Source of the DNA: Microbispora sp. ZYX-F-249 | Lineage (GTDB): Bacteria > Actinomycetota > Actinomycetes > Streptosporangiales > Streptosporangiaceae | Assembly: GCF_039649665.1 (NCBI RefSeq) | Contig: NZ_JBDJAW010000012.1 | Location: forward strand, 124,001 to 188,000 | DNA: 64,000 bases | Direction: 5' to 3' | Shown here: positions 11,712 to 62,133 of the stretch, piece by piece | Numbering within the stretch: position 1 is the first letter of the stretch | How the letters are laid out: each line of letters opens with the position of its first letter | The notes under the pieces: model-generated | What the model was told of the DNA's origin: nothing | Databases searched by the model: none | The model's input: the letters and a program-made list of their open reading frames with translations, nothing else | Position numbers and translations under genes: made by a program

Positions 11712-12770
11712 ATGGCGCAAGGATCCTCGCACGACACGCGCGGAGCCGGCCCGCACCGGGTCGTCCTGATCGTGGACGAGAACTCCAACCCCTTCGAGCT
11801 GGGCTGCGCGACCGAGGTGTTCGGCCTGCGCAGGCCCGAGCTCGGGCGCGACCTGTACGACTTCCGGCTGTGTTCCCCCGAGCCGCGCACGCTGATGCGC
11901 GACGGGTTCTTCACGCTCGCGGGCGTCGCCGGCCTGGAGGCGGCCGAGTCGGCGGACACGGTGATCGTCCCCAACCGTCCCGACGTCGAGGTGCCGCGCC
12001 GCCCCGCCGTGCTGGACGCGATCCGGCGGGCGCACGCGCGCGGCGCCCGCCTGGTCGGCTTCTGCAGCGGCGCTTTCACGTTGGCCGAGGCGGGGATCCT
12101 CGACGGGCGCAGGGCCACCGCGCACTGGCAGTGGGCGGCTTCCTTCCGGGCCCGATTCCCCGCCGTACGGCTCGAGACGGACGTGCTGTTCGTGGACGAC
12201 GGTGACATCCTGACCTCCGCGGGGAGCGCCGCCGCGCTCGACCTCGGGCTGTACATCGTCCGCCGCGACCACGGCGCGGAGGTCGCGAACTCGGTGAGCC
12301 GCCGGCTCGTGTTCGCCGCGCACCGCGACGGCGGGCAGCGGCAGTTCGTGGAGCGGCCGGTGCCCGCCGTGCCGGACGAGTCGCTGGCGCCCGTCCTGGC
12401 CTGGGCGCAGGAGCGGCTGGACGCCCCGCTCACGGTGTCCGACCTCGCGGCTCGCGCCTCGGTCAGCGCGGCGACGCTGCATCGCCGCTTCCGGGCGGAG
12501 CTGGGCACCACGCCGCTGGCGTGGCTGACCGGGGAACGGCTCGCCCTGGCGTGCCGGCTCATCGAGCGGGGAGAGTCGCGCTTCGAGACGGTCGCGCGGC
12601 GCAGCGGCCTGGGCACGGCCGCCAACCTGCGCACGCTGATGCGCCGCAAGATCGGGCTCACGCCGGTGGAGTACCGGCGCCGGTTCGGCCCGGTGACAGG
12701 CACGGCGACAGGCACGGCGACAAGCCCGGTGACAAGCCCGGTGACAGCGGAGGGTGCGCCGCGGGGGTGA
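11712..12770 (+). CDS. GlxA-type regulator: DJ-1/PfpI amidotransferase-like domain plus AraC helix-turn-helix
   Basis: A protein of 352 residues. Residues about 15-180 form a DJ-1/PfpI domain with the nucleophile-elbow-like Cys in GARLVGFCSGAFTLAEAG and AHWQWAASF, as in GlxA/FtrA-like regulators. Residues about 220-330 are an AraC DNA-binding domain (LTVSDLAARASVSAATLHRRF, then FETVARRSGLGTAANLRTLM). The amidotransferase domain is usually a ligand sensor rather than an enzyme. The C-terminal tail (G-T-A-T-G-T-A-T-S-P-V-T) is encoded by 12-bp tandem repeats and is probably dispensable. The divergent cupin gene is a candidate target. Confidence 0.9.
   Translation: MAQGSSHDTRGAGPHRVVLIVDENSNPFELGCATEVFGLRRPELGRDLYDFRLCSPEPRTLMRDGFFTLAGVAGLEAAESADTVIVPNRPDVEVPRRPAVLDAIRRAHARGARLVGFCSGAFTLAEAGILDGRRATAHWQWAASFRARFPAVRLETDVLFVDDGDILTSAGSAAALDLGLYIVRRDHGAEVANSVSRRLVFAAHRDGGQRQFVERPVPAVPDESLAPVLAWAQERLDAPLTVSDLAARASVSAATLHRRFRAELGTTPLAWLTGERLALACRLIERGESRFETVARRSGLGTAANLRTLMRRKIGLTPVEYRRRFGPVTGTATGTATSPVTSPVTAEGAPRG
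12692..12751 (+). repeat. Tandem 12-bp repeat, about five units, inside the GlxA-type gene
   Basis: Units begin at 12692, 12704, 12716, 12728 and 12740 with consensus GGYGACARGCMC; the last unit is degenerate. They encode a Thr/Pro/Ser/Val tail beyond the AraC domain. Because the unit is a multiple of three, copy changes keep the frame, so length variation between strains is expected. Confidence 0.85.
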
Positions 12771-12773
12771 CGG

Positions 12774-13097
12774 TCAGTGCGCGCCGGACAGGTTGAGCAC
12801 GGCGACCCCGGCGATGATCAGTGCGATGCCGGCGGCCTTGACGAGGTTCATGTGCTCGCCGAGGAACATGGCGCCGATCAGCGCGATCGCGGCGGTCCCG
12901 GTGCCCGCCCAGACCGCGTACGCGATCCCGACGGGCATGCGGAGCTTGAGCGCCCAGGCCAGCAGGACGAACGAGGCGATGTAGCCGACGGCGACCACGA
13001 CGGTCCAGCCCCAGCGGCTGAAGCCGTCGCTGAGTTTGAGCGCGGAGGTGGCCAGGACCTCCGAGGCGATCGCGCCGACGAGCAGGAGCCAGGCCAT
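12774..13097 (-). CDS. Small multidrug resistance (SMR) exporter, EmrE/Qac-like
   Basis: A protein of 107 residues with four transmembrane helices. TM1 contains AIASEVLATSALKLSDGF with the essential Glu (E13). TM2 has YIASFVLLAWAL. TM3 has MPVGIAYAVWAGTGT with the conserved Tyr and Trp. These match the Qac/EmrE branch (E-V-x-x-T-x-x-x-K) rather than the guanidinium exporter Gdx branch, which by my recollection carries a Trp in the TM1 E-V-x-W motif. It works as a dimer exchanging protons for cations. It converges on the GlxA-type gene and lies just beside the guanidine locus at 13.3-22.3 kb. The start ATG is preceded by GGAGAGG. Confidence 0.9.
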   Translation of the reverse strand: MAWLLLVGAIASEVLATSALKLSDGFSRWGWTVVVAVGYIASFVLLAWALKLRMPVGIAYAVWAGTGTAAIALIGAMFLGEHMNLVKAAGIALIIAGVAVLNLSGAH

Positions 13098-13271
13098 GGG
13101 GGAACCTCTCCGAACAAAAACTGTACGCTTGTCCCAATTTTACTCGGCAAGGCGTCGCAGCACCATGGGCGGACCAACCGGGTGCTCCAGGCTTGTGAAC
13201 CGTCGGCCGGGGTCCTGCCGGCCGGGCCAGCGGTGAGGGATGCGTTACGGCGGATGAACGCGCCCGTGACG

Positions 13272-13315
13272 ACGGGGAAACGACGGCCCCGTACATATCT
13301 GTCAACCGACAGAAA
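13272..13315. promoter_or_regulatory. Leader of the APC permease: GC-rich dyad followed by candidate TetR operator
   Basis: TCTGTC (13298-13303), a 4-base centre AACC and GACAGA (13308-13313) form a palindrome 23 bp before the permease start. Its extended flanks (13296-13315) match the longer operator at 15643-15666. A second inverted repeat, ACGGGG (13272-13277) and CCCCGT (13287-13292), sits immediately upstream. Both are probably regulatory; the regulator is most likely the TetR encoded at 14818-15543. Confidence 0.7.
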
Positions 13316-13338
13316 TCCCCCCAGCTCCCGGAGCCACG

Positions 13339-14886
13339 ATGGCCGTCACCGTCCCTCCCTCGCCCCCCACCGACGAGAGCGCCCTGCAGACGTTCGGCTA
13401 CCGCCAGGAGCTGCACCGCAGCATGGGCAGGTACGCCTCGTTCGCCGCCGGATTCTCCTTCATCTCCGTGCTGACCACGGTCTTCCAGTTCTTCGCCTTC
13501 GGGTACGCCTCCGGCGGCCCGGCCTTCTTCTGGACCTGGCCCGTCGTGCTGGCCGGGCAGATCATGGTCGCCCTCTGCTTCGCCGAACTCGCCGCCCGCT
13601 ACCCCATCTCCGGCGCCATCTACCAGTGGTCCAGCCGGCTCAGCACGGCGGCGTTCGGCTGGTTCGCCGGATGGATCATGATCCTCGGGCAGATCGTCGT
13701 GATCGCCGCCGCGGCGCTCGCCCTGCAGGTCGTGCTGCCCGCGATCTGGCCGGGCTTCCAGCTCGTCGGCGGCGACCCCGCGCCCACCACCGCCACCGGG
13801 GCGGCCAACGCCGCCGTCCTCGGCCTCGTCCTGCTCGCGCTCACCACGACCGTGAACGCCGTCGACAACCGCGTTCTCGCCCGGATCAACAGCATCGGCG
13901 TCACCGCCGAGATCATCGGCGCGGTGCTCATCGTGGTGCTGCTGTTCACCCACGCCGAGCACGGCCCCGGCGTCACGTTCAGCACCGGCGGGCACGGCGG
14001 GGCCGTCGGCGCGCTGCTGGTCGGCTCGTTCACCGCCGCCTACGTCCTCATCGGGTTCGACAGCGCGGGCGAGCTGAGCGAGGAGACCCGCAGCCCCCGG
14101 CGGGTCGCCCCGCGCACCATCCTGACCGCGCTCACGGCGGCTGGGCTGCTCGGCGGGCTCATCGTGTTCGCCGGTCTGCTCGCCGCGCCCAGCCTGACCG
14201 ACGGAAGGCTGGCCGCCGAGGGCCTGTCCTACGTGCTCACCAGCAGCCTGGGCGACTGGGTGGGCAAGCTGCTGCTGGCCGACGTGGTGCTGGCGATCAC
14301 CGTGGCGACCATGGCGATCCAGACCGCCGCCACCAGGATGCTGTTCTCCATGGCGCGCGACGGGGTGATGCCGTTTTCCGCCGCGCTGTCCAGGGTCTCG
14401 CCCCGCACCGGCATGCCGACCGGGCCCGCGCTGGTCACCGGAGTGGCCGCCGGGGCCGTCCTGCTGCTCAACTTCGCCTCTCCCGAGGCGTTCCTGGCCA
14501 TCGGCACCACCTGCATCGTGCTGCTCTACCTGGCGTACGCGATGGTGACGGGCCCCCTGCTGGTCCAGCGCCTGCGCGGCGGCTGGCGGGGCGGGGCGCC
14601 GGCCGGGGTCGCCGAGGACGGCAGCCGGCTGTTCAGCATGGGCCGCTGGGGCCTGCCGGTGAACGCGCTGGCCCTTTGTTACGGCCTGGCGATGGCGGTC
14701 AACCTGGCCTGGCCGAGGGCCGAAGTGTACGCCCCGATCACCGGCCACTGGTTCTTCCAGTGGTTCACGCTGCTCTTCCTTGCGGCGGTCGTGGCTCTCG
14801 GCGCGCTCTACCGGCGGCTACGCCGGCCCGCCGCCCTTCTTCCGCAGGTCGGGCAGATCCCCGTCGGCAACACCGGCCAGGCGTAG
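13339..14886 (+). CDS. APC-superfamily permease of the urea/guanidine utilisation locus
   Basis: A protein of 515 residues with about 12 hydrophobic helices. The N-terminal ASFAAGFSFISVLTTVFQFFAFGY and CFAELAARYPISGAIYQWSSRL are typical of amino acid/polyamine permeases of the GABA-permease-like group often encoded beside urea carboxylase. It probably imports guanidine, urea or a related cation. It has its own operator-bearing promoter (13296-13315). Its last 69 bp overlap, tail-to-tail, the 3' end of the TetR gene. Confidence 0.88.
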   Translation: MAVTVPPSPPTDESALQTFGYRQELHRSMGRYASFAAGFSFISVLTTVFQFFAFGYASGGPAFFWTWPVVLAGQIMVALCFAELAARYPISGAIYQWSSRLSTAAFGWFAGWIMILGQIVVIAAAALALQVVLPAIWPGFQLVGGDPAPTTATGAANAAVLGLVLLALTTTVNAVDNRVLARINSIGVTAEIIGAVLIVVLLFTHAEHGPGVTFSTGGHGGAVGALLVGSFTAAYVLIGFDSAGELSEETRSPRRVAPRTILTALTAAGLLGGLIVFAGLLAAPSLTDGRLAAEGLSYVLTSSLGDWVGKLLLADVVLAITVATMAIQTAATRMLFSMARDGVMPFSAALSRVSPRTGMPTGPALVTGVAAGAVLLLNFASPEAFLAIGTTCIVLLYLAYAMVTGPLLVQRLRGGWRGGAPAGVAEDGSRLFSMGRWGLPVNALALCYGLAMAVNLAWPRAEVYAPITGHWFFQWFTLLFLAAVVALGALYRRLRRPAALLPQVGQIPVGNTGQA

Positions 14887-15543
14887 CGCCGCGTCGGCGG
14901 TGGCGGCGGCCAGCGTTTCCAGGACGCCGGCCGCCATCGCGCCCGTGGTGTCCCTGCGGATCAGGATGACGCCCTCGATCAGCGCGAACAGCAGGTCGGT
15001 GCGCAGCGCCCGTTCGGCGGGCGTCAGCGCCGCACCGGCGGAGGTGGCGGCCAGCAGCCGCCCGTAGGTGTCCTTGAGCTCGCCGCGCATGCGCCGGAAG
15101 CCGGCGAACCGCTCGGTGCGCACCTCGGGCAGGAGATAGAGCGCGCCCAGGTTGTGCGGGCCGGAGCACAACAGCCCGGCGTCGCAGTGGCACAGCTGCC
15201 ACAGCCGCTCCTCCGGCGTGGCACCGGTCAGGGCGCGGGCGGCCTCCAGCGAGGGCCGCACCGTGCTCTCCAGCAGTTCGGCGAGGATGTCCTCCTTGCC
15301 GTCGAAGTAGTGGTAGATCGACGCCTGCCTGATCCCGGCCCGCTCGGCCATCGCCCTCGTCGAGGTCGCGGCGTAGCCGTGCGTGGTGAACAATGCCGCC
15401 GCCGCGGTGAGGATCTCCTCGCGCGGGCTCAGGTCGCTGCGCGGGCGCGCGACGGCCCGCGGCCTGCCGACCCTTCGTACGCCGGAGCCGGTCCCCCTGG
15501 AACTGGGCGGGTCGGAAATGGGCAGGTCGGAACGGGCACTCAC
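14818..15543 (-). CDS. TetR-family regulator of the guanidine locus
   Basis: A protein of 241 residues if translation starts at GTG 15543; the frame is open to 15765, and GTG 15564 is also possible, since no ribosome-binding site decides it. The helix-turn-helix is near residues 45-90 (EEILTAAAALFTTHGYAATS, then MAERAGIRQASIYHYFDGKED). It sits between the permease and the enzyme operon, each of which has the same palindrome close to its start, so it is the natural repressor of both. The effector is probably guanidine or a pathway intermediate. Its coding end runs 69 bp into the permease gene on the other strand. Confidence 0.88.
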   Translation of the reverse strand: MSARSDLPISDPPSSRGTGSGVRRVGRPRAVARPRSDLSPREEILTAAAALFTTHGYAATSTRAMAERAGIRQASIYHYFDGKEDILAELLESTVRPSLEAARALTGATPEERLWQLCHCDAGLLCSGPHNLGALYLLPEVRTERFAGFRRMRGELKDTYGRLLAATSAGAALTPAERALRTDLLFALIEGVILIRRDTTGAMAAGVLETLAAATADAALRLAGVADGDLPDLRKKGGGPA

Positions 15544-15612
15544 CCGACGATCGTCGCACACCTCCCCCGGGCCCTCGTGGCTGTGCGATCTCGGTAACGG
15601 ACGGGAAACCTC

Positions 15613-15640
15613 GCGGCGCGTGCGAGGAAACACGCGCCGC
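15613..15640. repeat. GC-rich inverted repeat ahead of the enzyme-operon operator
   Basis: GCGGCGCGTG (15613-15622) and its exact complement CACGCGCCGC (15631-15640) flank an 8-base centre, CGAGGAAA. The repeat ends 2 bp before the operator palindrome at 15643. The permease leader has the same arrangement. It could be a second protein site or an RNA hairpin; it does not carry the ACGR loops of the mini-ykkC guanidine riboswitch. Confidence 0.6.
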
Positions 15641-15642
15641 CT

Positions 15643-15666
15643 AATTTCTGTCACACGACAGAAATT
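15643..15666. promoter_or_regulatory. Perfect 24-bp palindrome, candidate TetR operator of the guanidine enzyme operon
   Basis: Arm AATTTCTGTC (15643-15652), centre ACAC, and the exact reverse complement of the arm (15657-15666). It ends 28 bp before the first start codon and just before the ribosome-binding site CAGGAGA, where bound repressor would block transcription. The core TCTGTC-N4-GACAGA also occurs before the permease. Confidence 0.8.
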
Positions 15667-15694
15667 CCTGCCCCCTCTCACAGGAGACCGTGTC

Positions 15695-16510
15695 ATGGCG
15701 ACCAGTACGACGTACGGCGCGCGAGAGCACGCCCGCGCCCAGGAGGGCACCAGAAGCGACACCATGCCGGTGCTCCCGGCCTCGGACTGGCCCGCCCCGC
15801 CGGACGGCGTCGCCCCCGCCGACCTCGTGTGGGCCGAGACCGTCGCCGGGGGCGGCTACACCCACAAGGTGCTGGCCCGGGGCACCGAACTGCGCCTCAC
15901 CGACCTGGCCGGCGACGCCTGCGCGCACCTGCTGCTCTACGTGGCGGGCCGCCCCTGGGAGCGGCTCAACGTCGCCGACACCGTCAAGGTGCTGTGGAAC
16001 GCCTACCTCGGCGAAGGCCACCTGCTGCTGTCGGACCAGGGCCGCGTGCTGGCCTCCGTCGTCACCGACACCTCCGGCCGCCACGACACCGTGTGCGGGA
16101 CCTCAACCCTGCGGCGCAACACCGAGCGGTACGGCGACGGCACACCGCACGGCCCCGCTCCCGCCGGGCGGGAACTGTTCACGCTCGCCGCCGCCAAGCA
16201 CGGCCTCGAGCGCCGGGACCTGCCCCCGTCGATCTCCTTCTTCCAGGGCGTGCGGGTCGGCCCCGACGGCGGCCTGACCTTCACCGGCTCCGCCGGGGCC
16301 GGCGCGTCGGTCACCCTGCGCGCCGAGATGCCGCTGACCGTGCTCATCGCCAACACCGCCCACCCGATCGACCCCCGTCCGGCCTACACCTGCACACCGA
16401 TGGAGGTCCTGGCCTGGCGCGCCCGGCCCACCGGCCCCGGCGACCCCCTGTGGCAGGCCAGCCCCGAAGGCCGCCGCGCCTTCCTCAACACCGCCGAGGT
16501 GACCCGATGA
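15695..16510 (+). CDS. DUF1989 urea-carboxylase-associated protein; probable carboxyguanidine deiminase subunit
   Basis: A protein of 271 residues, ATG 15695 with CAGGAGA upstream. It belongs to the urea amidolyase-associated (UAAP/DUF1989) family, of which two paralogues always occur with bacterial urea/guanidine carboxylases. Established work on such operons showed that the pair forms carboxyguanidine deiminase (CgdAB), converting carboxyguanidine to allophanate. Shared family motif: VTDTSGRHDTV followed by NTERYG, and SISFFQGVRVGPDG. The length fits the longer (UAAP2-like) member; I do not assign A or B. It overlaps the next gene by ATGA and is the first gene of the operon. Confidence 0.85.
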   Translation: MATSTTYGAREHARAQEGTRSDTMPVLPASDWPAPPDGVAPADLVWAETVAGGGYTHKVLARGTELRLTDLAGDACAHLLLYVAGRPWERLNVADTVKVLWNAYLGEGHLLLSDQGRVLASVVTDTSGRHDTVCGTSTLRRNTERYGDGTPHGPAPAGRELFTLAAAKHGLERRDLPPSISFFQGVRVGPDGGLTFTGSAGAGASVTLRAEMPLTVLIANTAHPIDPRPAYTCTPMEVLAWRARPTGPGDPLWQASPEGRRAFLNTAEVTR

Positions 16511-17118
16511 CCCTCACCGACACACCCGTGCTCGATGTGACCGTGCCCGCCCGCGCCCCCTGGTCGGCGATCGTCCGCGCCGGGCAGGAGCTGACCATCA
16601 CCGACCTCGGCGGCAACCAGGCCGTCGACTGCCTGCTGTACGACGCGCACGACACCGCCGTCCGCTACAGCGCCCCCGACACCGTCCACGCCCAGGGCGG
16701 CATCTTCCTCACCACCGGCAGCGTGCTGATGTCCAACGAACACACCCCGCTGATGACCGTCGTCGCCGACACCTGCGGCCGCCACGACACCGTCGGCGGC
16801 GCCTGCTCCAAGGAGTCCAACACGCTGCGCTACGGGCACCACACCTACTCCCAGCACGCCTGTGTGGAGAACTTCCTCATCGAGGGCGGCCGCCACGGGC
16901 TCGGCAAACGCGACCTGGTGAGCAACATCAACTGGTTCATGAACGTCCCGGTCGAGCCCGACGGCACGCTCGGCATCGTCGACGGCATCTCCGCCCCCGG
17001 CCTCGCCGTCACCCTGCGCGCCGAGACCGACGTGCTGGTCCTGGTCTCCAACTGCCCGCAGATCAACAACCCGTGCAACGGCTTCGACCCCACGCCCGTG
17101 CGGATGACGGTCCGATGA
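16507..17118 (+). CDS. DUF1989 urea-carboxylase-associated protein, second paralogue; probable carboxyguanidine deiminase subunit
   Basis: A protein of 203 residues starting inside the stop of the preceding gene. It repeats the same family signatures: VADTCGRHDTVGGACSKESN followed by TLRYG, then SNINWFMNVPVEPDG and a C-terminal LVLVSNCPQINNPCNGFDPT. It is the shorter, UAAP1-like partner and presumably forms a hetero-oligomer with the product of 15695-16510. Role by family: hydrolysis of carboxyguanidine so that allophanate can reach the hydrolase at the end of the operon. Its stop overlaps the start of the carboxylase (ATGA). Confidence 0.87.
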   Translation: MTLTDTPVLDVTVPARAPWSAIVRAGQELTITDLGGNQAVDCLLYDAHDTAVRYSAPDTVHAQGGIFLTTGSVLMSNEHTPLMTVVADTCGRHDTVGGACSKESNTLRYGHHTYSQHACVENFLIEGGRHGLGKRDLVSNINWFMNVPVEPDGTLGIVDGISAPGLAVTLRAETDVLVLVSNCPQINNPCNGFDPTPVRMTVR

Positions 17119-20100
17119 ACACTCTCCTCGTCGCCAACCGGGGCGAGATCGCCGTCCGCGTCATCGCCACCGCCCGCCGCCTGGGCCTGCGCACCGTCGC
17201 CGTCTACTCCGACGCCGACCGGGGCGCCGCCCACGTCCGCCTGGCCGACCACGCCGTACGGCTCGGCCCCGCCCCCGCCCGCGAGAGCTACCTGGACGCC
17301 GGCCGGGTGCTGCGGGCCGCGCTGGACAGCGGCGCGGACGCCGTCCACCCCGGTTACGGCTTCCTGTCCGAGGACGCCGCCTTCGCCCGGCAGGTCGAGG
17401 CCGCCGGGCTGGCCTTCGTCGGCCCCACCCCCGAGCAGCTCGACCTGTTCGGCGCCAAGCACACCGCCCGCGCCGCCGCCGAGCGGGCCGGCGTGCCCCT
17501 GCTCCCCGGCACCAGTCTGCTCCCCGACCTCGACGCCGCCCTGCGCGCCGCGCGGGACATCGGCTACCCGGTCATGCTCAAGGCCACCGGCGGAGGCGGC
17601 GGCATCGGCATGCGCGCCTGCCGCGACGCCGGTGACCTGGCCGAGGCGTGGCAGAGCGTGCAGCGCACGGCCGCCGCGAGCTTCGCCTCGGCCGGGCTGT
17701 TCCTGGAACGCCTGGTCGAGGGCGGCCGGCACGTCGAGGTCCAGGTGTTCGGCGACGGCATGGGCGGCGTCGTCACGTTCGGCGATCGCGACTGCTCGCT
17801 GCAGCGGCGGCACCAGAAGGTGCTGGAGGAGGCCCCCGCCCCCGGACTGCCGCCGCGGGTGCGGGCCGGGCTCGCCGACAGCGCCGCCGGCCTGTGCGCC
17901 TCGGTGCGTTACCGGTCGGCGGGCACGGTCGAGTTCATCTACGACCCGGCACGCGGCGAGCCGTACTTCCTGGAGGTCAACACCCGGCTGCAGGTGGAGC
18001 ACCCCGTCACCGAGGCGATCTACGGCGTCGACCTGGTCGAATGGATGCTGCGCCTGGCCCAGGGCGACGTGAGCCACGTGCACGCCGCCCTGCGCAACCC
18101 GCCCCGGGCCGCCGGCAACGCCGTCGAGGCCCGTGTGTACGCCGAGGACCCCAGCCGCGACCACCGGCCCGGCGCGGGCCTGCTCACCCGGGTCGAGTTC
18201 CCCGAGGGCGTGCGGGTCGACGGCTGGGTGGAGACGGGCACGCAGGTGAGCAGCGCCTACGACCCGCTGCTCGCCAAGGTGATCGCGCACGGCGCCGACC
18301 GGGACCAGGCCCTGGACCGGCTGGCCGCGGCGCTGGCCGAGACCCGGATCGACGGCGTCGAGACCAACCTCGGGCTGCTGCGCGCCGCCGTGGCCGATCC
18401 CTGCGTACGGGCGGCCGCGCACGGCACCGCCACCCTGGCCGGGCTCGCCGACGGCTCCCGCCGCATCGAGGTGGTGCGGCCCGGCACCCTGACCACCGTC
18501 CAGGACTGGCCGGGACGGACCGGCTACTGGCAGGTGGGCGTGCCGCCGTCGGGGCCGATGGACGACCGCTCCTTCCGGTACGGCAACACCGCGCTGGGCA
18601 ACGACCCCGGCGCGCCCGGCCTGGAGTGCACGTTGCGCGGCCCGGCGCTGCGCTTCAGCCACGCCACGACCGTCTGCGTCACCGGCGCGCCCGCACCGGT
18701 CACCGTGGACGGCACGCCCGTCCCCCAGTGGGAGCCGGTCACCGTGCCCGCCGGCGGTGTGCTGGACGTCGGCGCCGCCGAAGGGCCGGGACTGCGCGTC
18801 TACCTGCTGATGGCGGGCGGGTTCGACGTGCCCGCCTACCTGGGCAGCGCCGCGACGTTCACGCTCGGGGGGTTCGGCGGCCACGGCGGCCGGGCCCTGC
18901 GCGCCGGGGACGTCCTGCACGGCGGAGGTCTCACCACCCACGCGGGCGTGGAGCCCGGCGGGCGGCCCGAGTTCGGGCACCACTGGCGGATCGGCGTGGT
19001 CGAGGGCCCGCACGCCGACCCCGAGTTCTTCACCGGCGACGACATCCGCGACTTCTGCGCCGCCGAGTGGAAGGTCCACCACAACTCCGCCCGCACCGGC
19101 GTACGCCTGATCGGCCCCAAACCGCGCTGGGCACGCCTCGACGGGGGCGAGGCGGGCCTGCACCCCTCCAACATCCACGACACGCCCTATTCGGTGGGCG
19201 CGGTGGACTACACCGGTGACATGCCGGTCGTGCTCGGTCCCGACGGCCCCTCGCTCGGCGGGTTCGTCTGCCCGGCCACCGTCGTCACCGCCGAACGCTG
19301 GAAACTCGGCCAGCTGCGGCCCGGGGACACCGTCACCTTCGTCCCCGCGCCCTCCGCGGTCGGCGCCCCCGGCGACGGCGGCGTGCTGCACCGCCTGCCC
19401 GAGACCGGCGAGCGGCCCCGCGTCACCTACCGGCGCAGCGGGGACGACAACATCCTCGTCGAGTACGGGCCGATGGTGCTCGACCTGGGCCTGCGCATGC
19501 GGGTGCACGCCCTGTCCGAGGCGCTCGCCGCCCGGGATCTGCCCGGCGTGATCGACCTCACCCCCGGCATCCGCTCGCTGCAGATCCATCTCGACCCGGC
19601 CGTGCTGTCGCAGCGCGACCTGCTGGCCGAGCTGCTGCGGCTCGAGGATGACCTGCCGCCCACGGGGGAGCTGGAGGTGCCGAGCCGCGTCGTCCATCTC
19701 CCCCTGTCGTGGGACGACCCCGCCACCCGGGAGGCGATCGCCCGGTACATGGCGGGGGTGCGTGACGACGCGCCCTGGTGCCCCTCCAACATCGAGTTCA
19801 TCCGCCGGGTGAACGGCCTGGATGACGTGGCCGACGTGCACCGCGTCGTGTTCGACGCCGAGTATCTCGTGCTCGGGCTCGGCGACGTCTACCTCGGCGC
19901 GCCCGTGGCCACCCCGCTCGATCCCCGGCACCGGCTGGTCACGACCAAGTACAACCCCGCGCGCACCTGGACCGCCGAGAACTCCGTCGGCATCGGCGGC
20001 GCCTACCTGTGCGTCTACGGGATGGAAGGACCGGGCGGCTACCAGTTCGTGGGCCGTACGACGCAGGTGTGGTCGAGCTGGCAGCAGCGCGGCGCGTTCC

Positions 20101-20636
20101 GGCCGGGCTTCCCCTGGCTGCTGCGTTTCTTCGACCGCATCCGCTGGTATCCGGTGACGGCCGAGGAACTGCTCGAACTACGGGCCGACCTGGCGGCGGG
20201 GCGGTTCGAACCCAAGATCGAAGAGGGGGTGTTCCGGCTCGCCGACTACCGCCGTTTCCTGGCCGAGCACGCCGAGTCCATCGCGGCCTTCCGCGAACGG
20301 CAGGCCGCCGCCTTCGCCGCCGAACGCGCGGCCTGGCAGGCGGCGGGCGAGTTCGACCGGGCGGAGCAGTCCCAGGGCCCGGCCGAGACCGAGCTGGAGC
20401 TGCCACCGGGGTGTGCGGTGGTGGAAGCGGAGTTCACCGCGAGCGTCTGGCAGGTCGGCGTCACGCCGGGCCGGCGGGTCGCGGCGGGGCAGCCGCTGGT
20501 CGTGCTGGAGGCGATGAAGATGGAGTCCGCCGTCCCGGCCCCCGCCGGCGGCGTCGTCGAACGCGTCCTGGTCGCCCCCGGGGACCAGGTGGAGGCGGGC
20601 GCCCCGCTGGTGGTGCTGAGGAGCGATCGTGGCTGA
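17115..20636 (+). CDS. Biotin-dependent urea/guanidine carboxylase, probably guanidine-type
   Basis: A protein of 1173 residues. The biotin carboxylase domain (1 to about 445) has the glycine loop KATGGGGGIGMRA and FLEVNTRLQVEHPVTE. The carboxyltransferase part of fused KipA/KipI-like domains follows (about 455-1000; PGTLTTVQDWPGRTGYW, GDDNILVEYGP), then the family-specific YNPARTWTAENSVGIGG region. The biotin carrier domain ends the protein, with LEAMKMESA carrying biotin-Lys1135. It carboxylates its substrate with ATP and bicarbonate. The residue in VGAVDYTGDMP is Asp698; by my recollection an Asp/Asn difference in this active-site region separates guanidine from urea carboxylases. The two DUF1989 partners also favour guanidine. 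No allophanate hydrolase is fused to it, unlike yeast urea amidolyase. Confidence 0.92.
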   Translation: MNTLLVANRGEIAVRVIATARRLGLRTVAVYSDADRGAAHVRLADHAVRLGPAPARESYLDAGRVLRAALDSGADAVHPGYGFLSEDAAFARQVEAAGLAFVGPTPEQLDLFGAKHTARAAAERAGVPLLPGTSLLPDLDAALRAARDIGYPVMLKATGGGGGIGMRACRDAGDLAEAWQSVQRTAAASFASAGLFLERLVEGGRHVEVQVFGDGMGGVVTFGDRDCSLQRRHQKVLEEAPAPGLPPRVRAGLADSAAGLCASVRYRSAGTVEFIYDPARGEPYFLEVNTRLQVEHPVTEAIYGVDLVEWMLRLAQGDVSHVHAALRNPPRAAGNAVEARVYAEDPSRDHRPGAGLLTRVEFPEGVRVDGWVETGTQVSSAYDPLLAKVIAHGADRDQALDRLAAALAETRIDGVETNLGLLRAAVADPCVRAAAHGTATLAGLADGSRRIEVVRPGTLTTVQDWPGRTGYWQVGVPPSGPMDDRSFRYGNTALGNDPGAPGLECTLRGPALRFSHATTVCVTGAPAPVTVDGTPVPQWEPVTVPAGGVLDVGAAEGPGLRVYLLMAGGFDVPAYLGSAATFTLGGFGGHGGRALRAGDVLHGGGLTTHAGVEPGGRPEFGHHWRIGVVEGPHADPEFFTGDDIRDFCAAEWKVHHNSARTGVRLIGPKPRWARLDGGEAGLHPSNIHDTPYSVGAVDYTGDMPVVLGPDGPSLGGFVCPATVVTAERWKLGQLRPGDTVTFVPAPSAVGAPGDGGVLHRLPETGERPRVTYRRSGDDNILVEYGPMVLDLGLRMRVHALSEALAARDLPGVIDLTPGIRSLQIHLDPAVLSQRDLLAELLRLEDDLPPTGELEVPSRVVHLPLSWDDPATREAIARYMAGVRDDAPWCPSNIEFIRRVNGLDDVADVHRVVFDAEYLVLGLGDVYLGAPVATPLDPRHRLVTTKYNPARTWTAENSVGIGGAYLCVYGMEGPGGYQFVGRTTQVWSSWQQRGAFRPGFPWLLRFFDRIRWYPVTAEELLELRADLAAGRFEPKIEEGVFRLADYRRFLAEHAESIAAFRERQAAAFAAERAAWQAAGEFDRAEQSQGPAETELELPPGCAVVEAEFTASVWQVGVTPGRRVAAGQPLVVLEAMKMESAVPAPAGGVVERVLVAPGDQVEAGAPLVVLRSDRG

Positions 20637-22314
20637 GACGACAGCTGAGACGACAGCTGGGACGGCACTGGAACGGGCCCGCAGGGCCTACGCCCGGATC
20701 ACCGAGACCGGCCGCGGCGAGATCTGGATCGACCTGCGGCCACAGGCCGAGGTGGAGGCCGAGGCCGCGGCCGTGGACGCCCGCGTGGCGGGCGGCGAGC
20801 ACCTCCCCCTCGCGGGCCGGACGCTGGCCGTCAAGGGCAACATCGACGTGGCCGGGCTGCCGACCACCGCCGGCTGCCCGTCCTACGCCTACCTGCCGGA
20901 CGCCGACGCCCCCGCCGTGGCCGCCCTCCGCGCGGCCGGCGCGATCGTGCTGGGCACCACCAACCTGGACCAGTTCGCCACCGGGCTGGTCGGCACCCGC
21001 AGCCCGTACGGCGCGGTGCGTGCCGCCGCCGACCCGGCGCGGATCTCCGGCGGGTCCAGCTCGGGCTCGGCGGTCGCCGTCGCGCTCGGCCTGGCCGACC
21101 TCGCGCTCGGCACCGACACCGCGGGCTCGGGCCGGGTCCCGGCCGCCTTCAACGGCATCGTGGGGCTCAAGCCCACCCGCGGCCTGATCCCCACCGGCGG
21201 CGTGGTCCCTGCCTGCCGGAGCCTGGACTGCGTCAGCGTCTTCGCCCGGACCATCCCCGAGGCCCAGCGGGCCCTGGCCCTCATGACGGATTCTCCGGCG
21301 GGGCCCGCGCCGCGCCCTGCCCGCCGCCCTGCCCGCCGTCCGGGGCCGTGGCGGGTGGCCGTGCCCGCCACCGCCGACCTGGGCGAGCTGGCCCCGGGCT
21401 GGGCCGAGGCGTTCGAGGACGCGGCCGGCGGGCTGGCCTCGGCGGGCGTGGAGATCCGCCCGATCGACCCCGCTCCCTTCCTTGAGGCCGCCACGCTGCT
21501 CTACCAGGGGGCGTTCGTCGCCGAGCGGTACACCGCGGTCGGCGCGTTCGTCGAGAAGGGCGGCCCGGACCTGGATCCCACCGTCGCCTCCATCATCACC
21601 GCGGCCCGTGACCTGCCCGCCCACCGCCTGTTCGCCGATCGGGAACGCCTGGCGGAACTCCGCGCGCGGGCCATGTCCCTGCTCGGGGACTGCGACGCCC
21701 TGCTCCTGCCGGTCACTCCCCGCCACCCCACCCTGGCGCAGGTCGCGGCCGACCCCGTCGGCGTCAACGGCGACCTCGGCCGCTTCACCAACTTCGTCAA
21801 CCTCTTCGACATGTGCGCGCTGGCCGTGCCCGCCGGGCAGGTGGACGGGCTGCCGTACGGGGTGATGCTGGCCGGGCGGGCCCACGCCGACGACGACCTG
21901 GCCGCCGTCGCCCGGCTGCTCCGGCCGGCCGCCCGCCTGGCGGTGGTCGGCGCGCACCTGTCGGGGCAACCGCTCAACCACGAGCTCACCGCGCGCGGCG
22001 GCCGCCTGGTGGCCACCACCGGCACCGCCGCGCGCTACCGGCTGCACGCCCTGAGCACCGACCCGCCCAAACCCGGGCTCGTACGGGTCGCCGAGGGCGG
22101 CGCGGCCGTCGAGTGCGAGGTGTGGGAACTGCCCGCCGACGGGCTGGGCGACCTGCTCGCGGCCCTCCCCCGCCCGATGACGCTGGGCCGGGTCGAACTG
22201 GCCGACGGCACGGACGTGCCCGGTTTCCTGTGCGCCCCGGAGGGGCTGCGGGGCGCCGCCGACATCACCGCGTACGGGGGGTGGCGCGCTTACTTGCGAT
22301 CGGTCCGCGGCTGA
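20629..22314 (+). CDS. atzF: Allophanate hydrolase (amidase-signature family)
   Basis: A protein of 561 residues from GTG 20629, with GAGGAG upstream, overlapping the carboxylase stop. The amidase catalytic triad is visible: Lys in LAVKGNIDVAG, then SGGSSSGSA and the nucleophile region TDTAGSGRVPAAFNGIVG. The C-terminal domain (about 450-561; GQPLNHELTARGGRLVATT, YRLHAL, PGLVRV) is the allophanate-hydrolase-specific accessory domain. It hydrolyses allophanate to ammonia and CO2, the last step of guanidine/urea assimilation. The first codons contain a duplicated 12-base unit (GCTGAGACGACA, twice) giving A-E-T-T-A-E-T-T. It is the last gene of the operon. Confidence 0.92.
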   Translation: MAETTAETTAGTALERARRAYARITETGRGEIWIDLRPQAEVEAEAAAVDARVAGGEHLPLAGRTLAVKGNIDVAGLPTTAGCPSYAYLPDADAPAVAALRAAGAIVLGTTNLDQFATGLVGTRSPYGAVRAAADPARISGGSSSGSAVAVALGLADLALGTDTAGSGRVPAAFNGIVGLKPTRGLIPTGGVVPACRSLDCVSVFARTIPEAQRALALMTDSPAGPAPRPARRPARRPGPWRVAVPATADLGELAPGWAEAFEDAAGGLASAGVEIRPIDPAPFLEAATLLYQGAFVAERYTAVGAFVEKGGPDLDPTVASIITAARDLPAHRLFADRERLAELRARAMSLLGDCDALLLPVTPRHPTLAQVAADPVGVNGDLGRFTNFVNLFDMCALAVPAGQVDGLPYGVMLAGRAHADDDLAAVARLLRPAARLAVVGAHLSGQPLNHELTARGGRLVATTGTAARYRLHALSTDPPKPGLVRVAEGGAAVECEVWELPADGLGDLLAALPRPMTLGRVELADGTDVPGFLCAPEGLRGAADITAYGGWRAYLRSVRG

Positions 22315-58674: not shown

Positions 58675-58825
58675 AAATCCGAGTTGTTCTAACTTGACCG
58701 GTTTGACCTGGTCTATTACCTTTTAGGCAGCTCAGGGCGCACTTGCTCATTCAATGGTCAAGAAGCCCTCCTCAGACCGACGCGGCCGGCCGATCCCGGC
58801 TTGCCGCCCGGCCGCCGAGTCCGCG

Positions 58826-58942
58826 TCCGCGCGGAGCCGGGGACCCACCTCTCCTGGGGTGAATCGGCATGCCTGCCGTAGGGCGCCTTCCAGCCCGAAC
58901 CCGTCAGCTAACCCGGTAGGCGGCATGGAAGTAAGGGAGTCC
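58826..58942 (+). promoter_or_regulatory. Cyclic di-AMP riboswitch (ydaO/yuaA type)
   Basis: The leader shows the conserved elements in order: GGAGCCGGGGACCCA (58833-58847), CTGGGGTGAATCGGC (58854-58868), GTAGGGCGCCTTCCAG (58878-58893), CCCGAACCCGTCAGCTAACC (58894-58913) and GGCGGCATGGAAGTAAGGGAG (58919-58939, key bases given in part). Actinobacterial ydaO riboswitches commonly precede cell-wall hydrolase genes and turn expression off at high c-di-AMP. The start codon follows at 58951. Confidence 0.88.

Positions 58943-59730: not shown

Positions 59731-62133
<2,403 letters not shown>

Follow-up and report, generated by a model that had tools for sequence, protein, structure and literature searches.

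We analysed a stretch of 64,000 nucleotides from Microbispora sp. ZYX-F-249 (contig NZ_JBDJAW010000012.1, positions 124,001 to 188,000), referred to here as the window, in which a permease gene and a four-gene enzyme operon each carry a palindrome with the core TCTGTC-N4-GACAGA ahead of the first start codon. The locus is best read as a regulon of the repressor AmtR for guanidine assimilation, with a GlnR-like input upstream. From sequence comparison, we assign this reading a probability of about 0.82, a figure that leaves the release of AmtR by a ligand aside. In the proposed model, AmtR, encoded between the two units, would bind a box of the form CTGTC-N4-GACAG in each of the two promoters, that of the permease and the divergent one of the enzyme operon, and GlnR would activate under nitrogen shortage through the GlnR-like boxes directly upstream. 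With activation by GlnR and repression by AmtR combined, expression of the operon would require both a shortage of nitrogen and the release of AmtR. The encoded proteins would import guanidine, carboxylate it, deiminate the carboxyguanidine to allophanate, and hydrolyse the allophanate to ammonia and CO2. The release of AmtR by guanidine or by a pathway product would be the most speculative step. The features of the locus are listed below.

13266 to 13281, plus strand: GlnR-like box GTGAC-N6-GAAAC in the permease promoter.
13296 to 13315, plus strand: AmtR box 1, TATCTGTCAACCGACAGAAA, with the exact core; 23 bp from the box end (13315) to the ATG of the permease (13339).
13339 to 14886, plus strand: APC-type permease (TIGR03428, urea-carboxylase-system permease, 641 bits), the presumed guanidine importer.
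14818 to 15543, minus strand: amtR, TetR-family repressor gene between the permease and the enzyme operon; the GTG start at 15543 is assumed.
15583 to 15631, plus strand: array of GlnR-like half boxes in 11-bp steps (15583, 15594, 15605, a weak one at 15616, and 15627); the best pair is GTAAC-N6-GAAAC at 15594-15609.
15642 to 15647, plus strand: possible -10 element TAATTT, proposed from conservation, overlapping the left arm of box 2.
15643 to 15666, plus strand: AmtR box 2, AATTTCTGTC-ACAC-GACAGAAATT; 28 bp from the box end (15666) to the ATG of the enzyme operon (15695).
15695 to 16510, plus strand: DUF1989 protein 1 (UAAP1, TIGR03425), presumed carboxyguanidine deiminase subunit.
16507 to 17118, plus strand: DUF1989 protein 2 (UAAP2, TIGR03424), presumed carboxyguanidine deiminase subunit.
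17115 to 20636, plus strand: biotin-dependent carboxylase with the guanidine signature D698 (position 1330 of the Kluyveromyces lactis enzyme) and D924 (K. lactis 1584).
20629 to 22314, plus strand: allophanate hydrolase with amidase and AH_C domains.

The TetR gene lies between the two units, as an earlier note on this DNA had placed it, and its 3' end overlaps that of the permease (14886) by 69 bp; within the four-gene operon, neighbouring gene ends also overlap. Judged by sequence and by a structure model, its product is AmtR. The best matches of the protein in the PDB were all AmtR (5e57, 5dxz, 5dy1, 5dy0, 5mqq, and 6gy3), at 2.3e-40 for Mycobacterium smegmatis 5e57 and from 1.9e-30 for Corynebacterium glutamicum 5dxz down to 9e-27 for 6gy3, and the next family, Mce3R, followed at 5.5e-12. 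The structure model, built from 43 homologues, had a mean predicted local distance difference test (pLDDT) score of 90.7, and the top 14 Foldseek matches obtained with it were all AmtR of M. smegmatis and C. glutamicum. The palindrome is an AmtR box. The C. glutamicum box, tttCTAT-N6-AtAGat/aA (PMC2723105), has equal geometry and spacing, although the half site is CTAT there and CTGT here. The recognition residues Q53, S55, and Y57 of C. glutamicum, described as important in the same source, are retained in the window AmtR, and Y58-H59 is replaced by H-Y; we infer that this exchange may go with the changed half site. The earlier note had missed the identity of the TetR protein, that of its box, and the GlnR-like boxes in both promoters.

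Exact copies of the core were found at 13298-13313 (TCTGTCAACCGACAGA) and 15647-15662 (TCTGTCACACGACAGA) with no third copy in the window, and both boxes, flanking arms included, end within 30 bp of the first start codon, as had been described. Box 2 had been taken for a perfect 24-bp palindrome, which it is not: its two 10-bp arms pair in full, whereas the ACAC between them does not, which leaves 20 of the 24 positions paired. The box at 13296-13315 had been called nearly perfect; its core is indeed exact, but 14 of its 20 positions pair. In flanked form, the boxes read TTTCTGT-N6-ACAGAAA (box 2) and TATCTGT-N6-ACAGAAA (box 1, one flank base off), and thus present the CTRT/AYAG half sites at a spacing of 6, the TTT/AAA flanks, and the location in target promoters that characterize an AmtR box. 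A window scan that allowed up to 2 mismatches resulted in 3 matches, the additional one having 2 mismatches (61009-61024), against 1.93 expected by chance; since this comparison covers up to 2 mismatches, the significance of the boxes rests elsewhere. A search of the whole genome of the strain (8,775,021 bases), of the kind that the earlier note had called for, placed the exact core at these two positions and not at many unrelated genes; the reversed-pattern control occurs 0 times. The occurrence of the core exceeds chance, by this genome-wide count and by its conservation in relatives.

For the relatives, we used the best 80 of 587 confirmed matches from a search with an AmtR alignment (the named loci), and 73 of them were counted as carrying a DUF1989 gene. 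The seven left out comprise four without a cluster (L069, L078, L082, and L085), one with weak DUF1989 pieces alone (L090), and two (L081 and L086) in which the presence of a cluster is not judgeable, as their contigs are about 4.5 kb long and stop next to amtR. The exact core was located at most 250 bp ahead of the DUF1989 gene in 69 of the 73 relatives, and the remaining four differ by one base, with CTAT in one arm (L031, L065, and L071) or the mirror change in the other arm (L053). At the permease promoter, a box scoring at least 14/16 was present in 47 of 53 readable loci, whereas 1060 shuffled controls scored 12 at most. This box was also present where the permease sits several kb off, and in L027 and L028 a single box apparently serves both the permease and the divergent enzyme operon. 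Additionally, in genome G367, where about 1.15 Mb separate amtR from the enzyme operon, the operon has the box and amtR does not. One TetR protein would thus very probably bind both sites, as the earlier note had proposed, given the core at the enzyme operon, the box at the permease, and a box that stays with the operon in G367.

We then considered a class sample of 296 genomes, in which an AmtR genome was one with an AmtR match of at least 190 bits (n = 28), leaving 268 others. Eight genomes with weak AmtR matches (119 bits or less) were excluded from the 28, none of which has a carboxylase match; were they counted, the genomes with AmtR only would number 11 instead of 3. The strict box TTTCTRTC-N4-GAYAGAAA occurred once each in 19 of the 296 genomes, and the reversed pattern in 1. 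Of the 19, 18 fell among the 28 AmtR genomes and one (G024) among the 268 others (Fisher p 9e-21). With a looser score applied to other lineages, 12 of 14 clusters had a CTRTC-N4-GAYAG-type palindrome beyond shuffles, for example TACCTGTC-N4-GACAGGTA, located before the first gene or at amtR. Counted by promoter stretch, 12 of 22 had a box beyond shuffles; the 10 without one included second promoters inside operons, three amtR promoters (G338, G367, and G332), and the G287 and G455 clusters.

A chance palindrome is ruled out by the genome-wide count, the conservation in relatives, and the association with AmtR genomes. The palindromes could otherwise be bound by another regulator, with amtR as a bystander, and the strict box of G024, a genome without an AmtR match, would agree with this. 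However, the other 18 of the 19 strict-box genomes are AmtR genomes, and the boxes have AmtR-box geometry. The strict box is also present in promoters of AmtR paralogs (G202, G246, G347, and G463), and the exact core was absent from the fetched stretch at all seven amtR loci without a visible cluster, of which L081 and L086 are those with contigs ending beside amtR. We therefore consider a bystander amtR extremely unlikely.

The regulation by AmtR is probably joined by a second input. The GlnR consensus is gTnAc-n6-GaAAc (PMC10704036), and boxes of this type lie upstream in both promoters. The pattern GTNAC-N6-GAAAC has two matches in the window, both in these promoters, against 0.10 expected, and none of 100 shuffles held two. 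In a set of 70 enzyme promoters, from the window and 69 named loci, the half boxes keep the positions -64, -53, -42, -31, and -20 from the AmtR core, and 64 of the 70 had a GlnR-like score of at least 8/9, compared with 0.5% of mononucleotide shuffles. At the sites of 69 relatives, CTAA is conserved on the left of the palindrome with no mirror on the right. A sigma-70 consensus scan of the region gave no promoter, so the -10 element is proposed from this conservation. Because box 2 overlaps the probable -10 region, AmtR bound there would block transcription. We infer that GlnR may act as an activator upstream and AmtR as a cover over the -10 region, and the arrangement suggests that both promoters are under a two-input gate of nitrogen shortage and inducer. 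A 10-bp GC-rich inverted repeat at 15613-15640, between the GlnR-like boxes and box 2, was flagged as terminator-like; no role was assigned to it, as its arms have mismatches in L023-L026 and no compensating changes were noticed in the sequences.

The second part of the reading concerns the substrate. The earlier note had recognized a guanidine-type pathway, and the DUF1989 pair together with a carboxylase of guanidine signature bears this out. According to PMC11410670, Asp at K. lactis position 1584 is required, and Asp at 1330 separates guanidine from urea carboxylases. The window enzyme has both, and a true urea carboxylase was rejected on D1330; D1330 and D1584 are present in all 71 legible named loci (9 of the 80 have no legible carboxylase residues). 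PMC11410670 recognizes the carboxyguanidine deiminase CgdAB by where its subunits fall in a DUF1989 tree, within the clades CgdA and CgdB; here, two DUF1989 subunits are encoded in the operon and match PF09347, UAAP1, and UAAP2 above cut-off.

In the class sample, carboxylase matches (E at or below 1e-200) were found in 33 of the 296 genomes, 25 of which are also AmtR genomes (Fisher p 3e-26). All 25 hold a copy with Asp-1330, and the carboxylase lies within about 5 kb of amtR in 23 of them, the exceptions being G338 and G367. Seven copies have Asn-1330, the urea residue, and all are unlinked to AmtR: six are in genomes lacking AmtR and one is in G229, which has a separate AmtR-linked Asp copy. 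For the Fisher test of Asp against Asn, 25 Asp and 7 Asn copies were the input, and two Met copies were excluded. The DUF1989 genes and the permease were not found at any of the five Asn loci examined, with 6 to 14 kb fetched around each and the G005 gene running to the contig end. Since the AmtR genomes with a carboxylase hold Asp-1330 without exception and the Asn copies are unlinked, the AmtR regulon is probably a guanidine regulon. Taking the annotation at its word, the regulon would serve urea and the enzyme would be a urea carboxylase. The models matched at the locus (TIGR02712, TIGR03424, TIGR03425, and TIGR03428) all bear urea names, and the M. smegmatis literature labels the genes as urea metabolism. 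We regard this as very unlikely, given the published guanidine mark at K. lactis 1330 in 25 of 25 AmtR-genome copies, the DUF1989 genes beside those examined, and the seven Asn copies, which stand apart from AmtR and, at the five loci examined, from DUF1989 genes and this permease in the stretch fetched.

Several points weigh against an AmtR regulon for guanidine. Among the 28 AmtR genomes, 10 are without the strict box and 3 (G246, G332, and G463) gave no carboxylase match, and even the looser score finds nothing beyond shuffles in the clusters of G287 and G455. The shuffles for the box and GlnR scores were mononucleotide shuffles, and the genomes behind the conservation counts are related to one another and for the most part Streptomyces, so the counts are not of independent events. 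Additionally, the 641 bits of the permease are below the TIGR03428 family cut-off of 740.

The earlier note had regarded a protein repressor as the point of interest. In itself, a protein repressor at this gene set is not new, since repression of the set by AmtR has been published for M. smegmatis (PMC4222082). There, the regulon of AmtR (MSMEG_4300) is MSMEG_2184-2189, with a permease, two unknown reading frames, a carboxylase, and an amidase, which matches the window set. The genes are derepressed without AmtR, GlnR is required for their nitrogen control, which is lost in its absence, and the gene set and AmtR co-occur in ten actinobacteria (PMC4222082); a GlnR chromatin immunoprecipitation peak and a gel shift have been reported upstream of MSMEG2184 (PMC3662644). 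Unlike in the window, the M. smegmatis amtR is located elsewhere in the genome, the permease heads the gene set, and the pathway is called urea degradation. The amtR cluster of Streptomyces avermitilis, sav6697-6709, has amtR in the opposite direction (PMC4222082, Table 3). The permease is elsewhere in S. avermitilis and several kb off in many Streptomyces loci, whereas it adjoins amtR in the window; the box and the GlnR-like array of the Streptomyces relatives match those of the window.

M. smegmatis was unmatched among the 198 genomes drawn, and six relatives with AmtR 79 to 90% identical stood in for it. All six have D1330, and five have a CTGTC-N4-GACAG-type palindrome about 60 bp ahead of the estimated permease start. 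A 2016 paper in the Journal of Molecular Biology reportedly gives CTGTC-N4-GACAG as the M. smegmatis AmtR motif. Unlike the window enzyme, the carboxylase of the relatives read corresponds to the carboxyltransferase part alone. The same partial match was seen at mycobacterial loci L174, L176, L182, L193, L195, L196, L197, L199, and L219-L224; with no match for a biotin carboxylase or a biotin carrier beside it, the mycobacterial carboxylase would need both from elsewhere.

What appears to be new here is guanidine as the substrate of the regulon, reassigned from urea. A link between AmtR and guanidine was not found in the literature searched, a body short on subscription journals. If the reassignment holds, genes annotated as urea carboxylase in the AmtR-linked operons of actinomycetes would be worth revisiting as guanidine carboxylase.

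Work on M. smegmatis AmtR has so far treated it as a regulator for urea metabolism; if the regulon is for guanidine, the obvious candidate effectors change. By our estimate, the chance is about one third that AmtR responds to guanidine or a pathway product, much as the earlier note had proposed. In a wider and similarly tentative form, AmtR outside Corynebacterium would be a protein sensor of guanidine or a direct breakdown product, and the Corynebacterium form would be derived, with the acidic residues that contact the ligand lost and control rewired to PII. If true, this would be the first guanidine-responsive transcription factor, in the place held by guanidine-I riboswitches in other bacteria. 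The residues D128, E147, and E197 are invariant in all 73 named guanidine-linked AmtRs and in the 15 of other lineages, apart from one E147D. They are replaced in C. glutamicum AmtR, a central nitrogen regulator released by PII, and in all seven legible Corynebacterium-like AmtRs (of eight with 64-75% identity to C. glutamicum AmtR in genomes of 2-3 Mb; L227 was not legible). A guanidinium ligand would go well with three acidic residues, and it would be consistent with this idea that they are lost where control passed to PII.

Other observations speak against such a ligand. The binding of M. smegmatis AmtR was unchanged by urea or amino acids at 0.5 to 5 mM (PMC4222082), and C. glutamicum AmtR is released by the PII protein (PMC4617892). 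The acidic residues are kept in four of four mycobacterial AmtR paralogs unlinked to the operon, two of them from genomes without a carboxylase match (G246 and G463), and also in the seven named amtR loci where the cluster was not seen. Therefore, guanidine-linked AmtRs cannot be told apart by these residues from the other AmtRs outside Corynebacterium. It is close to an even chance that AmtR binds the boxes and senses no pathway molecule, acting as a fixed brake that competes with GlnR or being tuned by its own level or a protein partner; this competes with the effector idea, not with the regulon itself. The PII release and the failure of urea and amino acids both favor it, as do nitrogen control that stays intact without AmtR (PMC4222082) and an antisense RNA to amtR on record. 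On the other hand, section 10 of PMC4222082 makes no mention of guanidine and does not name carboxyguanidine among the compounds tried, AmtR travels with the guanidine operon in the 23 of 25 genomes mentioned above, and the acidic residues follow the pattern just described.

Control by RNA was also considered. Guanidine-I riboswitch operons hold the DUF1989 pair, the carboxylase, and the allophanate hydrolase, as in the window. In those of G214 and G280, the riboswitch is within about 100 bp before the first recognized gene, where AmtR clusters have the box. These two genomes have RNA instead of protein control and no AmtR match, and their carboxylases are distant (47% identity), with Met at 1330 in place of the Asp of the window enzyme. 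No guanidine riboswitch was detected ahead of the window operon: no Rfam 15 match was found near it at gathering score (whether Rfam 15 includes a guanidine-IV model being unchecked), no Rfam match was found at E up to 1 in 13050-15800, and the loci of 8 relatives gave tRNA alone and no riboswitch at gathering score. A hidden Rfam riboswitch at the operon was rejected on these scans. Elsewhere in the genome of the strain, a guanidine-III riboswitch (L173:2083-2154, equal to G000:C63:18582-18653; 38.7 bits, cut-off 36) precedes a CBU_0592-family membrane protein. Guanidine-III matches were present in 24 of 36 genomes checked (23 over the cut-off), and none lies within 100 kb of a carboxylase on the same contig.

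Further observations concern AmtR genes and boxes away from the guanidine cluster. Loci L069, L078, L082, L085, and L090 are Streptomyces amtR loci without a full guanidine cluster nearby and without an exact box in the fetched stretch. Mycobacterial genomes hold a second AmtR type whose own promoter has a strict AmtR box (L175, L189, L190, and L198); G246 and G463 hold the second type and have no carboxylase match. The site in G024, a genome without an AmtR match, is a perfect 20-bp palindrome of AmtR-box type (G024:C1:3450716-3450735, TTTCTATCAATTGATAGAAA).

Beside the permease and divergent from it, the window has a small multidrug resistance (SMR) gene (12774-13097, Pfam PF00893), which is Qac/EmrE-like by NCBIfam scores, all below cut-offs. 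It was rejected as a regulon member: among L023-L102, it is next to the permease solely in L023, and its scores are Qac-like. The SMR gene is adjoined by a gene for an AraC-type regulator with a DJ-1/PfpI domain (11712-12770). Far from the locus, at 58803-58936, the window also holds a cyclic di-AMP (c-di-AMP; ydaO/yuaA) riboswitch with 85.4 bits.

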